From NCBI GenBank assembly GCA_903865015.1, contig CAIPID010000498.1, positions 1 through 39,705 on the forward strand: 39,705 nucleotides of DNA, written 5' to 3'. This DNA is from an uncultured beta proteobacterium (GTDB lineage Bacteria; Pseudomonadota; Gammaproteobacteria; Burkholderiales; Burkholderiaceae_B). The translations under genes and the position numbers were made by a program. This document shows, one piece after another, positions 3,160 through 19,106 of the stretch. The first letter of the stretch is position 1, and every line of letters begins with the position of its first letter. A model generated the notes under the pieces. The model worked only from the letters and a program-made list of their open reading frames with translations, was not told where the DNA came from and did not search any database.

Positions 3160-3963
3160 CTATTTCTTTGCAGGCATGTCAAGCGCTTTATCGTCTTGTG
3201 GCACATCTTCAAAGTCTTCGTAATTGGGGAGCTTTTCAGCTTCGCCTTTAGTGCCGCGAACTTGCGCCGCACGTTTTTTAAGGTAAGCGTCTCGGATAAA
3301 GCTATACGGATCAGGCGCTGTACGATCAACCATGTTAGTGACATCAAGCAGGGCTTCCCGACGTTCGATAATCTCAAAGCCGTAGATTGAATTGCGAACC
3401 TCCACGTCATGGACCAGCTGACCGTAGCCGTATTGGTTAAAGTATAAGTCTGGAATTTTGCCCGTACCATCTCTGAGGGTTGTTCCACCAAGTATTGGCA
3501 GGACCATATAGGGACCTGAGCTGATACCCCATACGCCAAGCGTTACGCCGAAATCGTTTGAAATACGTTTTGCGCCATTCATGCTCGCCAGGTCAAAGCA
3601 GCCGCCAATACCCATCGTAGAGTTCAACAAAAAGCGACCCATCGTGTTGAGTGCGTCTTCGTGACGACCTTGAATGGAGCTATTAATGAAGGACCAGACT
3701 TCACCCAGATTCAAAAAAATATTATTTATACAGGAGCGAACAGGCTGAGGTGTGACAAAAGCGTAGGCCTCGGCCACGGGCTTGAATAATGCCCGGTCGA
3801 TTGCATCATTAAACGCGTAGACAGAGCGGTTCGAGGACTCCCATGGGTCCTGTGGGTTTGCCGTAACGACGTGCTGAGTGGCGCAGCCAGCCAATAGCAA
3901 CGCGGCTAAGACGCTATTCAGTCTGATCGCAGTGCGTAGTGTGAATGTTTGAAGTATTTTCAT
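3160..3963 (-). CDS. mlaA: MlaA (VacJ) outer-membrane lipoprotein
   Basis: A 267-residue lipoprotein; the lipobox LLAGC ends the signal peptide near residue 27. MlaA sits in the inner leaflet of the outer membrane with porins and removes mislocalised phospholipids. Typical motifs are DPWESSNRSVYAFNDAIDR, VRSCINNIFLNLGE and GVWGISSGPYMVLPILGGTTLRDG. In E. coli mlaA lies apart from the other mla genes; here it is inside the operon between mlaD and mlaC, an arrangement common in betaproteobacteria. The C-terminus is charged and lysine-rich, without a further domain. Confidence 0.95.
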   Translation of the reverse strand: MKILQTFTLRTAIRLNSVLAALLLAGCATQHVVTANPQDPWESSNRSVYAFNDAIDRALFKPVAEAYAFVTPQPVRSCINNIFLNLGEVWSFINSSIQGRHEDALNTMGRFLLNSTMGIGGCFDLASMNGAKRISNDFGVTLGVWGISSGPYMVLPILGGTTLRDGTGKIPDLYFNQYGYGQLVHDVEVRNSIYGFEIIERREALLDVTNMVDRTAPDPYSFIRDAYLKKRAAQVRGTKGEAEKLPNYEDFEDVPQDDKALDMPAKK

Positions 3964-13724: not shown

Positions 13725-14429
13725 TCATCCGTGCGCCATTGTGGTGCTGGATTTTGGCCGGCCGCGCTTGGCCGGCCTGACTCTACGGCTTGATAACGGT
13801 GAAATCTCATTTAAAAATGCCTCACTCCCTAAAGGCCATTGCCCTCGCAGGGCTTTTTCGATAGTTATGTCTGTTGAGTGAGTATTGCCCTCCTGCAGTT
13901 TTTTACGATAAATCGCCTGGCGGTCAAATGGGGTGTTTCCGCATGCCCAGTAATCAAGATGCTGCGATAACCACACTGGCGCCAGTCCTGCAGCACCTGT
14001 ATGAGCCGCTACAGAGCACCAGGGCCAGAGTTCAGGGTCTGTACTGGATTGTTCCCTCACGGATTGCCGCTCAAGCCAAAGCAGTGCCGGCAATACCCAG
14101 ACACCAGGCTCCAGTAAAGTCGATCGGTAGCGACCAGAAAATACTGCACCCGTCTTGAGCGCTGCAGCAAGGTGTCGGCCAAGTGACTGAATAAGTTTAG
14201 AAATACCCTGAGGGTCTTTAGGCGTCGCCAATAATAAAATAGACTTAGGTGTTAAGGACCATCCGTGGATCGCGACGTGATACTGAGTGGCGGCCTCGCC
14301 CAGCCAATTTACGATCGTGGGTAATGTTGGATTGGTTAAGTCAAAAGGGAAAATCGTGTTGATATCAGCGAATTCGGCGATGGCAAGCTGGACAGAGCCT
14401 GGAGCATAGAGTCTTGGCAAGCGTGCCAT
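13725..14429 (-). CDS. RAYT-like (IS200/Y1 family) transposase-related protein, catalytic motifs lost
   Basis: A 234-residue protein with the scaffold of REP-associated tyrosine transposases: it begins MARLPRL, contains LLLATPKDPQGISKLIQSLGR, then FSGRYRSTLLEPG, and ends in the basic RPAKRGRPKS. In active relatives the region before LLATP reads like MPNHVHLL and carries the HUH metal site; here it is LTPKSILLL, with no HxH. The catalytic tyrosine region after SLGR (usually RYVRYFN) is HLAAALK, without Tyr. The protein is therefore probably unable to cut DNA by the Y1 chemistry, yet the frame is intact. It may be a domesticated DNA-binding protein or a decaying relic. It follows the propeptide-like gene at 14452 by 22 bp on the same strand. 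Confidence 0.75.
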   Translation of the reverse strand: MARLPRLYAPGSVQLAIAEFADINTIFPFDLTNPTLPTIVNWLGEAATQYHVAIHGWSLTPKSILLLATPKDPQGISKLIQSLGRHLAAALKTGAVFSGRYRSTLLEPGVWVLPALLWLERQSVREQSSTDPELWPWCSVAAHTGAAGLAPVWLSQHLDYWACGNTPFDRQAIYRKKLQEGNTHSTDITIEKALRGQWPLGSEAFLNEISPLSSRRVRPAKRGRPKSSTTMAHG

Positions 14430-14451: not shown

Positions 14452-15396
14452 TTAAGGTTTGCGTAAGCGATAAAAAAGATTTGGTTCACTGACGATGTAG
14501 ATATTGCCGGCGTCATCCGTTGCGATACCTTCTGGTCTTGGCATGGGCTTGGTGCCTTTTGGGGATAAAGAAAGCATGCCACGGCCTTCGCCTGTATCAC
14601 CGTCGAGCTGAACAATCATTTGTGACTCTTCGCTTAGCAGAAAAATACGACCGGTAGAGGGATCAACCTCTACTGAGGACAAATCTGTCGCAAAGGGAAT
14701 GTCATCGAGCCAATAACTGAAATTTTCGATACGCAAACCACGCGACTCTGATGATTGCAGGTAGTTGAGGCCGCTTATGCGGTAAAGCGCCCGCGGGCTG
14801 TGTTCTTTAGCGATATACAGGCGATCACGTTTGAGGTCATAGCCCAGGCCATCAAAACCAAAGTTACTATCGTCGCTTTCGCCAAAACGCAACACAAGTG
14901 AAAAGGCACGTGTGACATCCATCACCTGTGGCGTTGGGGGTACTTCGGTGATCAGCACGCGACTTCTTCGCCCGTTAACCATGGCGATTCTGTTGCCGCC
15001 AACCCAGGCAATGCCGTTAACGTCTGAGATCCCTTTGAGAGGATATGTGGCCAAAATCTGACCGTCTACGGACATCGCAACGAGACTGGCAGGTTTATTC
15101 GTCACGGCCCAGAGGCGTTTTTGCAACGGATCGTAGGTTAAACCAGCAAAGTTACCCTCAAGTCCCTGAACTGAAATTGGTTTGTCAGGGGCCGCATAGC
15201 CTGTCAGCGTGTTGCCACCCGAGGCTGCGATTTTGGTTTCCCACTGTTGTTGTTTGGCAGCCAGACCAGATAACCAGCGATAAGCGACCTGCTCCGCATG
15301 GTAATAGCGCACGCCGATATACGTTGCCCATCCAACGAGGATGACAAGCACGCAAGCCAGCAGAATTTTTGAGAGAAACTTAACTAAATCGGACAT
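14452..15396 (-). CDS. SdiA-regulated domain (YjiK-like) membrane-anchored beta-propeller protein
   Basis: A 314-residue protein with one N-terminal membrane segment (FLSKILLACVLVILVGWATYIGV) and a large extracytoplasmic part resembling the SdiA-regulated family (YjiK-like, PF06977). Motifs: GNFAGLTYDPLQKRLWAVTN, GFDGLGYDLKRDRLYIAKEHSP, DLSSVEVDPSTGRIFLLSEES and PEGIATDDAGNIYIVSEPN, which read as beta-propeller blades. The biochemical role of this family is not established. The track start at 15426 is TTG; the ATG at 15396 (MSDLVKFLSK) is preferred. It is divergent from rpoH and shares the 178-bp intergenic region that holds the CIRCE element. Confidence 0.82.
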   Translation of the reverse strand: MSDLVKFLSKILLACVLVILVGWATYIGVRYYHAEQVAYRWLSGLAAKQQQWETKIAASGGNTLTGYAAPDKPISVQGLEGNFAGLTYDPLQKRLWAVTNKPASLVAMSVDGQILATYPLKGISDVNGIAWVGGNRIAMVNGRRSRVLITEVPPTPQVMDVTRAFSLVLRFGESDDSNFGFDGLGYDLKRDRLYIAKEHSPRALYRISGLNYLQSSESRGLRIENFSYWLDDIPFATDLSSVEVDPSTGRIFLLSEESQMIVQLDGDTGEGRGMLSLSPKGTKPMPRPEGIATDDAGNIYIVSEPNLFYRLRKP

Positions 15397-15504
15397 ACCC
15401 GGATCCAGGTGGGCGCTTTTCGGCAAATTCGCCGCTGCGCCGAGCCCCTTGAGATTAACACTCCAGAGGAAATTACGGAACTTTTATAGAAATTAATAGT
15501 CAGA

Positions 15505-15531
15505 TTAGCACTCGGGATGCAAGAGTGCTAA
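15505..15531. promoter_or_regulatory. CIRCE element (HrcA operator) upstream of rpoH
   Basis: The sequence TTAGCACTC, nine bases, GAGTGCTAA is a perfect match to the CIRCE consensus bound by the heat-shock repressor HrcA. It lies 43 bp before the rpoH ATG. A possible promoter, TTAGCA (15505-15510), 18 bp, TAAGAT (15529-15534), would sit right on the two arms, so HrcA binding would block it. Seen directly: the inverted repeat. Known: CIRCE is the HrcA site. Inferred: repression of rpoH, and perhaps of the divergent gene as well. Confidence 0.93.
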
Positions 15532-15574
15532 GATTTAATCGTAGCTTGCACCTAAGTCTAGGAGCAACAATATC

Positions 15575-16456
15575 ATGACAAGTTCAAACGCTTTGACATT
15601 GCAACCAAATCAACTCGCGATGGCGATCTCGAACCCAGGTGCCTTAGGGACCATCGAGGCCTACATCGGAACTGTAAATCGCTTGCCGGTGCTTTCGCCC
15701 GAGCAAGAGCAGACGCTTGCGCGTCGCTTGCGTGACCAAGAGGACATCGACGCGGCGCGTGAACTCGTTCTATCCCACCTGCGACTGGTGGTCTCCGTCG
15801 CACGCCAGTATCTTGGATACGGCTTGCCCCATGCTGACCTGATTCAGGAAGGTAATCTTGGCCTGATGAAAGCTGTCAAACGATTTGACCCCGAGCGCGG
15901 TGTGCGTCTGGTGTCGTTTGCCGTGCACTGGATCAAGGCCGAAATTCATGAATATATCGTGCGTAACTGGCGCATGGTAAAGGTCGCGACCACGAAAGCG
16001 CAGCGTAAGTTGTTTTTCAATTTGCGCAGCATGCGTCCAGATGGTCTGACGCTGGATCCAACGCAGGTCGATGAAATCGCCAAGACATTAAATGTAAAAA
16101 CCGAAGACGTTCGCGAAATGGAAGTTCGCATGTCGGGTCGTGAGATGTCCCTGGAAAATCAGGATGACGATGACGACTCCTACGCACCGATCGCTTATTT
16201 GTCTGATGATGGGCGTTCTGATCCCACGCAGGTGCTTGAGCGTCGTGCAACCGACACGATGCAGGGCGACGGCCTGACTCAGGCCCTTGAGGGCCTGGAT
16301 CCTCGTTCACGTCGTATTGTTCAGGCGCGCTGGCTGCAGGATGATGGTGGTGCGACATTGCATGAGTTGGCTGCAGAATTTGGTGTCTCGGCTGAACGTA
16401 TCCGCCAGATTGAGGTGGCGGCGATGAAAAAAATGCGTGTTGCGCTCGCAGACTAA
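15575..16456 (+). CDS. rpoH: RNA polymerase heat-shock sigma factor RpoH (sigma-32)
   Basis: A 293-residue sigma-70 family factor of the RpoH group. Region 2 holds DLIQEGNLGLMKAVKRFDP and FAVHWIKAEIHEYIVRNWR; the RpoH-box-like stretch TTKAQRKLFFNLRSMR follows; region 4 has the helix-turn-helix ATLHELAAEFGVSAERIRQIE. It directs transcription of chaperone and protease genes after heat or envelope stress. The start is supported by AGGAG upstream. An acidic run DDDDDSY lies between regions 2 and 4. Regulation is suggested by the perfect CIRCE element in its promoter region. A rho-independent terminator follows at 16510-16533. Confidence 0.97.
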   Translation: MTSSNALTLQPNQLAMAISNPGALGTIEAYIGTVNRLPVLSPEQEQTLARRLRDQEDIDAARELVLSHLRLVVSVARQYLGYGLPHADLIQEGNLGLMKAVKRFDPERGVRLVSFAVHWIKAEIHEYIVRNWRMVKVATTKAQRKLFFNLRSMRPDGLTLDPTQVDEIAKTLNVKTEDVREMEVRMSGREMSLENQDDDDDSYAPIAYLSDDGRSDPTQVLERRATDTMQGDGLTQALEGLDPRSRRIVQARWLQDDGGATLHELAAEFGVSAERIRQIEVAAMKKMRVALAD

Positions 16457-16509: not shown

Positions 16510-16533
16510 AAGCATCCTCAGGGGTGCTTTTTT
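16510..16533 (+). terminator. Rho-independent terminator after rpoH
   Basis: AGCATCC (16511-16517), a TCAG loop and GGGTGCT (16522-16528) form a 7-bp stem with one G-U pair, followed by a run of T. A second hairpin without a T-tract (about 16466-16491, GCTGCCA paired with TGGTAGC) lies just upstream and may stabilise the rpoH mRNA end. Confidence 0.8.
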
Positions 16534-16574
16534 ATTGCAACGAAAGTTGGTGCAAAGAACTTGGACAAAAAGAA

Positions 16575-19106
16575 ATGGATATAGGTTCTTTTGTATTCGG
16601 ATTAGCGGGCTTGCTTGCACTGATATGTTTCGTGCCGCCACTGGCTGGACGCATTAAATTACCGCATTCGGTTTTCCTGGCAATTTGTGGCTGCCTACTC
16701 GCCTATGCCGCGCACGTTTTAAGATGGGCGCCACCAGTAATTGGCGATTTTCTAGGCATTATCAACACCTTTGAAATTTCTTCCGAAACTTTTCTAATCG
16801 TTTTTTTGCCCATCTTATTGTTTGAAACAGCACTATCCATGAACGTGAGAAGGCTCATGGATGACATCGGTCCGATTCTGATGATGGCGATCGTCGCGGT
16901 GGTGGTGAGCACCCTGTTGGTGGGCGTGGTGTTGTCGGAGTTCTCCGGCATGGGTATTGTCGCGTGCCTGTTGCTGGGGGCGATCGTGTCAACGACCGAT
17001 CCGGCCGCGGTGATCGGAATTTTCAGAGAGGTTGGCGCACCTAAAAGATTGACTACGCTGGTGGAAGGCGAGAGCCTGCTCAATGACGCCGCAGCGATTG
17101 CTTTGTATTCCGTACTTTTGGGTGTTCTTTCTAAAGACACCAACTGGGCAATGGGTTTGGTGGTTAAAGAGTTTCTGGTGCTCTTTTTGGGAGGAGGCTT
17201 AGCAGGATTTGTCATTGGTCGGCTTGCCTGCGCGTCGTTTGCCTGGTTGCGCGGATGGCCTGCAGCAGAGATTTCAATGACGGTGGCCGTTGCCTACCTG
17301 TCGTTTTTTATTTCTGAGCATTATTTGCACGTATCAGGCGTGGTCGCAACCGTTGTGGCGGGTCTTGTGGTCGGCTCGACGGGCCGCACACGCATGTCGA
17401 CGACAACATTTGAAACACTTTCGCACTCCTGGCACCAGTTTGGTTTCTGGGCGAATTCCCTGATCTTTTTATTTGCTGCCATGCTGATACCTAAGATGAT
17501 GCAAAACATCTCATGGAATCATGCGATCCAAATTTTGCTAGTGTTCCTGAGTACGTTGCTGGCCAGAGCCGTCGTAGTGTTTGGGTTGATTCCGTTGTTG
17601 TCGTCCGTTGGTTTCGGTGCGCGCGTGGGGATACGTTTTAAAACTGTGATCTGGTGGGGCGGACTCAGAGGTGCGGTGTCGCTCGCGCTTGCGTTAGCCG
17701 TGACAGAGCGCGCAAGTTTGCCCGCGGACGTTCGGGAATTTATCGCGATTGTCGTGACAGGTTTTGTGCTGGCTACGCTGTTTATCAACGGCTTGTCTTT
17801 GCAGTCGCTTATCCGGATGCTGGGATTGACGCAGTTGACAAAAAAGGAGCGTGCGTTACGTGATCAGGCTGTTCTTGTCGCGGCGACCCTCACACAGCAC
17901 GAAACCGATGTGATTGCACAAGAAGAGCATGTGCCTCACGAAGTCCGTCAGCGTATTCAGGATGTTTTTAATGAGAGCATGGCGGCTTCGGCACAAACGC
18001 CAATCGATTACTTTTCAGAACAAGACAAGATAGATCTTGGGTTATCGATTTTGGCGCGCAGGGAATTCGAAATATATTTTGACGTCCTCAAGCATCAGAT
18101 CATTGATCGCAACATGGCAGAAATTTTGATCGGTAAGGCTGAGCGGCTTGAGGATGCGGTGAGAGTGCGCGGCTTGGGAGGCTTTAATGTGGTTGCAGCG
18201 CGCGCGTTACGCTATCCACGCAGGTTTCGCCAGGCCTTACGTGTTTCGGAAATTTTCGGTATCCAGCGCTGGCTCGCGCATGAGCTGAGCCAGCGTTTTG
18301 TTGCATTGATGTGCATGCGCTCAGTATCCAGGCAGCTGATCATCTTTGCCGATCAAAAATTGCGAGAGATTCTGGGTGATGCGGCAACAGAGCAGGTCAG
18401 GCAGGCGCATCAGCGCCGTTTAGATCTCATCGCCGAGGGGTTGCAAGCCTTGGAATTGCAGTATCCCTCCTATTCTTTGTGGTTGCATGAACGTTATCTT
18501 GGGCGGATTGCGCGACGTATTGAGCGCGAACGCTATGACGAGATGCTGGAGCAGTCTCTGATTAGCGGTGAGGTGTATGCAGACTTGACGGGTAAGGTTG
18601 GCAAGCGCTGGGAGTTTATCGATCGCAATCCGCCGCTTGATATTCAGATGGAGGCGGCTGATCTGGTAGCCAGAGTTCCTTTGCTCAATACATTGACGCC
18701 CGATGTGCAACGTCAGTTGGCAAAGATGCTGACACCGCGTTTGTTTTTACCTGACCAGTTGGTCTGGGGCCAGAAAGGCCCTGCATTTGCGCTTTACATC
18801 GTTGCCTCTGGAGCGGTCAAAGTGCTGTTGCCAGACGGCACCCACATTGAGCTAGGTTCGGGAGAATTTTTTGGCGAGCTCTACATGCTGGCGAAAGAGA
18901 AACTGGATGAGTTTGAGGTCCGCTCACTTGGCTACAGCAAATTATTGTGTTTGCCAGCACGCGATTTTGAAGCATTGCTTTCGCGAGACCCGGCTTTGCG
19001 TGCAAGCATCGAGTTGGTTGCAAAACAACGGATGAGAGCCCTTGAGGTCTGGCGCAGTCAACCGCCTACGCCACCTGTGCCTACGCCACCTGCCGCGAAC
19101 GTCTGA
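16575..19106 (+). CDS. Cation/proton antiporter with C-terminal cyclic-nucleotide-binding-like domain (SOS1-like)
   Basis: An 843-residue protein. The first 420 or so residues form a CPA1-type Na+/H+ exchanger domain with about 12 membrane segments; STTDPAAVIGIF and GESLLNDAAAIALY (near residue 165) carry the ion-binding acidic residues. A long helical cytoplasmic region (about 430-710) follows, then a cyclic-nucleotide-binding fold near 715-815 with GSGEFFGELYML. The order matches plant SOS1 and its bacterial relatives. The PRxA stretch that contacts the nucleotide phosphate is not evident, so nucleotide binding is doubtful. The track start at 16524 is a GTG inside the rpoH terminator; ATG at 16575 (MDIGSFVFG) is preferred, although its ribosome site is weak. 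The 3' end overlaps the convergent NUDIX gene by 26 bp. Confidence 0.88.
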   Translation: MDIGSFVFGLAGLLALICFVPPLAGRIKLPHSVFLAICGCLLAYAAHVLRWAPPVIGDFLGIINTFEISSETFLIVFLPILLFETALSMNVRRLMDDIGPILMMAIVAVVVSTLLVGVVLSEFSGMGIVACLLLGAIVSTTDPAAVIGIFREVGAPKRLTTLVEGESLLNDAAAIALYSVLLGVLSKDTNWAMGLVVKEFLVLFLGGGLAGFVIGRLACASFAWLRGWPAAEISMTVAVAYLSFFISEHYLHVSGVVATVVAGLVVGSTGRTRMSTTTFETLSHSWHQFGFWANSLIFLFAAMLIPKMMQNISWNHAIQILLVFLSTLLARAVVVFGLIPLLSSVGFGARVGIRFKTVIWWGGLRGAVSLALALAVTERASLPADVREFIAIVVTGFVLATLFINGLSLQSLIRMLGLTQLTKKERALRDQAVLVAATLTQHETDVIAQEEHVPHEVRQRIQDVFNESMAASAQTPIDYFSEQDKIDLGLSILARREFEIYFDVLKHQIIDRNMAEILIGKAERLEDAVRVRGLGGFNVVAARALRYPRRFRQALRVSEIFGIQRWLAHELSQRFVALMCMRSVSRQLIIFADQKLREILGDAATEQVRQAHQRRLDLIAEGLQALELQYPSYSLWLHERYLGRIARRIERERYDEMLEQSLISGEVYADLTGKVGKRWEFIDRNPPLDIQMEAADLVARVPLLNTLTPDVQRQLAKMLTPRLFLPDQLVWGQKGPAFALYIVASGAVKVLLPDGTHIELGSGEFFGELYMLAKEKLDEFEVRSLGYSKLLCLPARDFEALLSRDPALRASIELVAKQRMRALEVWRSQPPTPPVPTPPAANV

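Follow-up and report, generated by a model that had tools for sequence, protein, structure and literature searches.

A perfect CIRCE element, the operator of the repressor HrcA, lies in front of rpoH in the genome of an uncultured beta-proteobacterium, which raises the question of whether HrcA governs the heat-shock sigma factor gene itself and, if so, through which promoter. The window (the whole stretch of DNA that was analysed, 39,705 nucleotides) carries the inverted repeat TTAGCACTC-N9-GAGTGCTAA at positions 15505-15531 (strand-neutral, identified from its sequence and its conservation across relatives). The site reads TTAGCACTC-GGGATGCAA-GAGTGCTAA in a 9-9-9 arrangement with 18 of 18 arm positions exact, as the sequence-only reading had claimed. 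It is the sole site with at most three mismatches in the window, and a chance origin was ruled out by shuffling the window, which yields a mean of 0.01 such sites. The element ends 43 bp before the ATG of rpoH and is therefore close upstream of a heat-shock gene. Indeed, the CDS at 15575-16456 (+ strand) encodes sigma-32 (293 aa), with 417 bits against PRK06596 and 404 bits against the RpoH equivalog model TIGR02392 (cut-off 323 bits), and it is the sole gene in the genome above this cut-off; a ribosome-binding site AGGAG (15560-15564, + strand), read from the sequence, lies 10 nt before the ATG. An RNA thermometer in the rpoH leader was considered and is not proposed, because the stretch 15510-15640 folds no better than its shuffles (z = -0.48). 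Directly after rpoH, a Na+/H+ exchanger with a C-terminal cyclic-nucleotide-binding domain is encoded (16524-19106, + strand). A 234-aa protein encoded at 13725-14429 (- strand) is without a Pfam or NCBIfam match and resembles a REP-associated tyrosine transposase by eye only.

The sequence-only reading had inferred a link from HrcA to sigma-32 and proposed that the genome be searched for other CIRCE sites and for hrcA, the absence of which would have spoken against the link. A scan of the assembly (3.58 Mb, 508 contigs, approximately 87% complete) revealed two perfect CIRCEs, namely the rpoH site and one located 68 bp before groES in front of groESL (contig C450); further sites could be missing since the assembly is only approximately 87% complete. 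A third CIRCE-like site (contig C145, three mismatches) lies within a coding frame, looks like a chance match and was set aside. A gene for HrcA is encoded (PF01628, E = 1.1e-63, open frame of 343 codons), so that the objection from its absence does not apply. This gene is found on a separate contig (C153), apart from grpE-dnaKJ, between genes which by inspection are hemH-like (ferrochelatase-like) and NAD-kinase-like. The genome-wide scan of the assembly detected no CIRCE before hrcA itself, and HrcA thus seems not to be self-regulated here. RpoE is also encoded in the genome (TIGR02939, 301 bits for a cut-off of 236).

The comparison with other Burkholderiales, likewise proposed beforehand, drew on the regions upstream of rpoH in 31 genus genomes, at 59 loci in the order and at 71 loci in the class. 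A CIRCE with at most three mismatches precedes rpoH in 31/31, 51/59 and 51/71 of these, respectively, and a reversed-pattern control never came below four mismatches in the same regions. Within the genus, the arms are unchanged in 21 of the 31 loci and the other 10 differ only at position 3, while the spacer bases drift. The site is also present in 78 of the 79 readable loci of a set of named genomes, the closest members of which are Bordetella, Pusillimonas, Advenella and Candidimonas (RpoH identity 73-78%); the named isolates carrying it include Bordetella, Advenella, Cupriavidus, Paraburkholderia and Herbaspirillum. A genus-only feature or an artefact of metagenome-assembled genomes was ruled out, as the 31 genus genomes and the named isolates carry the same site.

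The sequence-only reading had seen the CIRCE and had missed the more informative feature of the site, namely a sigma-E-type promoter fused to it. A -35 element of the ECF02/RpoE type, GGAACTT (15477-15483, + strand), begins at -28 from the CIRCE, where it is conserved in the genus, and is separated by a 15-bp spacer from a -10 element, GTCAGA (15499-15504, + strand), which ends on the base before the CIRCE. The pattern GGAACTT-N15-GTCnnA is the RpoE-type promoter consensus. The form GGAACTT, approximately 15 bp, nTCnnA is matched exactly at 15477-15504, and exact matches to GGAACTT-N15-GTCNNA in the genome (3.58 Mb) amount to one, before rpoH. The ECF02 logo is discussed in PMC3490749.

At -28, GGAACTT is exact (7/7) in 30 of the 31 genus loci and 6/7 in the remaining one. 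All 31 have TC..A as the -10, at a gap of 15, and the 15 bases of that spacer are variable. Outside the genus, the loci with this upstream layout have TC at a gap of 15 in 20/27 cases and at any other gap in no more than 2/27. The distance from the motif to the CIRCE varies by lineage (-28, -31, -16) and the 15-bp spacing is constant. In most other lineages, GGAACTT is located at approximately -16 and not at -28, i.e. 12 bp further downstream, a register in which the 15-bp spacing makes the -10 coincide with positions 7-12 of the CIRCE, its C-T-C coming from the left arm and its T.A from the CIRCE spacer. These two spacer bases, T10 and A12, occur together in 60/99 loci of the -16 layout versus 2/58 loci of the upstream layout and 0/43 groESL CIRCEs, and the GAACTT/T.A signature is absent from the groESL CIRCEs of relatives (0/43). 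A sigma-E motif with the correct spacing, overlapping or abutting the CIRCE, was found in 31/31 genus loci, 29/51 order loci and 33/51 class loci, compared with 0.5-0.7 loci expected after shuffling flank and spacer and 0-1 loci in a control stretch further upstream; 47 of 211 CIRCE-bearing relatives have no recognisable sigma-E -35 nearby. We lean towards the view that the operator bound by HrcA and the rpoH promoter used by sigma-E are a single shared element throughout the class. HrcA and sigma-E would then compete directly for the same DNA, cytoplasmic stress sensed by GroE and envelope stress would be integrated in a single overlap that sets sigma-32, and the lineage of the window would have shifted by 12 bp to an abutting arrangement.

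A second putative promoter lies within the arms of the CIRCE. In the window, the left arm provides a sigma-70-like -35, TTAGCA (15505-15510, + strand), proposed from the variation at position 3, and 18 bp further on the last three CIRCE bases and the following GAT provide a sigma-70-like -10, TAAGAT (15529-15534, + strand), both of which are weak by sigma-70 consensus. In 45/133 rpoH loci, position 3 is changed from A to G, giving TTGGCA, a good -35, versus 2/133 for the mirror change at position 25. Just outside the CIRCE, A29T30 is found in 110/133 rpoH loci versus 3/43 groESL CIRCEs, so that the right arm runs on into the -10-like hexamer TAAnAT. Being one-sided, the pattern suggests that a promoter of the housekeeping type lies inside the operator and faces rpoH. 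The groESL CIRCEs, for their part, are preceded by CTTGAAA...CCCTATAA (CTTGAAA...CCCTAT type), a sigma-32-type promoter whose -10 abuts the CIRCE. The layout with the operator placed after the -10 is common to groESL and rpoH, and the sigma factor differs; from this contrast, the start region on which an HrcA operator of this group lies is that of a sigma-E promoter in the case of rpoH and that of a sigma-32 promoter in the case of groESL. In one genome (G029, contig C43, L028), two identical perfect CIRCEs are found near groESL at 3747 and 3902, 155 bp apart and beside a run of N, which is possibly an assembly duplication.

The inner promoter could by itself account for the locus: only the CIRCE would be functional, GGAACTT-N15-GTCAGA would be unused, and rpoH would be an ordinary HrcA target transcribed from the sigma-70-like promoter. 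This is what A29T30 and the one-sided TTGGCA would suggest, and the rest of the genome shows no enrichment of the sigma-E motif: with at most one mismatch, the pattern has 18 matches versus 70 for the reversed control, and no clear copy was found upstream of rpoE either. We nevertheless regard this explanation as unlikely, since the sigma-E motif is nearly invariant around a variable spacer in the 31 genus loci, since its 15-bp spacing is held when the register shifts between lineages, and since SigE transcribes the promoter region of Bordetella bronchiseptica rpoH (fam) in vitro (PMC3490749).

The CIRCE could also act in both directions. The divergent gene (14452-15426, - strand, with a start possibly at the ATG at 15396) codes for a beta-propeller-type protein of the SdiA-regulated family (PF06977, E = 1.5e-62), and the sequence-only reading had suggested that it might share the control. 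It lies approximately 80-110 bp from the CIRCE and is kept in 28 of the 29 genus loci searched, which would be consistent with bidirectional control, but it is found in 0/138 of the other loci searched, so that outside the genus the CIRCE-rpoH arrangement is kept without a PF06977 neighbour. Moreover, no conserved promoter-like element is present on the divergent side of the CIRCE: in the genus loci, A29T30 is found on the rpoH side in 30/31 and a mirror-image AT on the divergent side in 7/31. The propeller protein is, in addition, single-anchor. As the promoter-like signals face rpoH only and the gene is confined to the genus, the suggestion is unsupported, and a CIRCE that also controls the divergent gene is unlikely. 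The PF06977 gene is judged a neighbour only and not part of the regulated unit.

The presence of the site follows that of its repressor. In a set of 128 order and class genomes, a CIRCE at rpoH (counted with at most four mismatches) was found in 100 of the 103 genomes with hrcA and in 3 of the 25 without it (Fisher p = 1.6e-18, a value which overstates independence because the genomes are related). The exceptions are three genomes with hrcA and without the site and three with the site and without a detected hrcA; neither is found in 22 genomes, and the hrcA-negative genomes are scattered over many families. The three class genomes that keep a CIRCE-like rpoH site with hrcA undetected (G168, G154 and G109; loci L108, L110 and L187) could hold relics or promoter-constrained remnants, or hrcA could be absent from their assemblies. 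Neisseria gonorrhoeae, reported to be without HrcA (PMC3135505) and used as an hrcA-negative control, has no CIRCE upstream of rpoH. That the site is a relic, with rpoH no longer under HrcA in this lineage and the CIRCE persisting by chance or through overlap with promoter bases, would agree with these three genomes and is very improbable given the loss of the site in 22/25 hrcA-negative genomes and the constancy of the arms over a drifting spacer in the genus. Wide conservation, together with the tracking of hrcA, indicates an old HrcA operator of rpoH and not an oddity of one genome. The link from HrcA to rpoH put forward by the sequence-only reading is thus strongly supported in silico, hrcA being present and the site being conserved and co-varying with it; it is neither special to this genome nor wholly new.

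The reading that we prefer, with a probability of roughly 0.78, is that of a composite rpoH promoter-operator, in which HrcA would block both promoters and the level of sigma-32 would be set jointly by envelope stress through sigma-E and by free GroE through HrcA; HrcA occupancy, repression and the use of either promoter are what we infer for this organism. Counting against this reading are the lack of enrichment of the sigma-E pattern in the rest of the genome, the 47 CIRCE-bearing relatives with no recognisable sigma-E -35, the genomes in which the site and hrcA do not go together, and the weak consensus match of the sigma-70-like element in the window. As the sigma-E promoter ends at the left edge of the CIRCE, its predicted start point (approximately 15510) falls inside the left arm, and the inner housekeeping-like promoter, with its -35 in one arm and its -10 in the other, would start near 15541. 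Once bound to the CIRCE, HrcA would occlude the sigma-E start point as well as all of the inner promoter, and so could block both promoters. In an unstressed cell, GroE would keep HrcA folded and rpoH would be held down; misfolded protein occupying GroE, or inactivation of HrcA by heat, would free the CIRCE, which would allow rpoH to be transcribed by the housekeeping polymerase or, once envelope stress has released it, by sigma-E. Sigma-32 would in turn drive groESL, whose sigma-32-type promoter abuts the second CIRCE of the genome, and new GroE would restore HrcA at both CIRCEs, so that the circuit would be a feed-forward loop under a single common brake. In Campylobacter jejuni, GroE has a stimulating effect on the binding of HrcA (PMC8533110), and the HrcA of Caulobacter depends on GroE to stay folded (PMC8119881); from this dependence, misfolded protein in the cytoplasm would be expected to open rpoH.

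Parts of this composite promoter-operator have counterparts in known systems. Geobacter sulfurreducens has a predicted rpoH CIRCE at position -51 (Rodionov et al. 2004, PMC545781, Table 8), where, as in the window, a perfect CIRCE stands shortly before rpoH and more sites are listed at chaperone operons. In the accessible parts of the same paper, Geobacter has in addition a CIRCE before hrcA-grpE-dnaKJ, such a site not being seen here, and a sigma-E element fused to the rpoH CIRCE is not described. Its authors took their profiles for beta-, gamma- and epsilon-proteobacteria from Permina and Gelfand (2003). Geobacter is delta-proteobacterial and belongs to a different group from the host of the window. 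The 2003 study of Permina and Gelfand reportedly deals with the relevant groups, and rpoH may already be among the HrcA targets that it gives.

With respect to sigma-E, an RpoE-type promoter directly drives rpoH in Escherichia coli (rpoHP3) and B. bronchiseptica (fam) (PMC3490749), as proposed here; the latter study mentions HrcA zero times, and E. coli, unlike the genome of the window, has no HrcA in a control profile search. In Bordetella genomosp. 4, a congener of B. bronchiseptica, TGAACTT-N15-GTCGAA abuts the CIRCE with the spacing and register of the window. The classical HrcA/CIRCE systems at groESL in Caulobacter (PMC8119881) and C. jejuni (PMC8533110) involve the same repressor family, and the groESL site of the present genome is in the usual place; by comparison with a classical groESL CIRCE, the target in the window is a sigma factor gene and the overlapped promoter is of the sigma-E type, not of the sigma-32 or sigma-70 type. 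The prediction of a CIRCE before rpoH (in Geobacter, PMC545781) and the control of rpoH by sigma-E are each already known separately. No paper joining HrcA, rpoH and a sigma-E promoter was found in the open-access literature, in which a conserved sigma-E promoter overlapping a CIRCE at rpoH seems to be undescribed and hence new. In this bacterium and most of its hrcA-bearing relatives, a stretch of a few dozen bases before rpoH is probably where two stress signals converge.

Escherichia coli, the standard model, sets sigma-32 mainly after transcription. The sequence predicts that the wiring differs in the relatives that carry hrcA, Bordetella, Cupriavidus and Paraburkholderia among them: there, the level of sigma-32 would be set at transcription by GroE via HrcA and by envelope stress via sigma-E on the same DNA, and the heat-shock circuitry of a large bacterial group thereby becomes directly testable.
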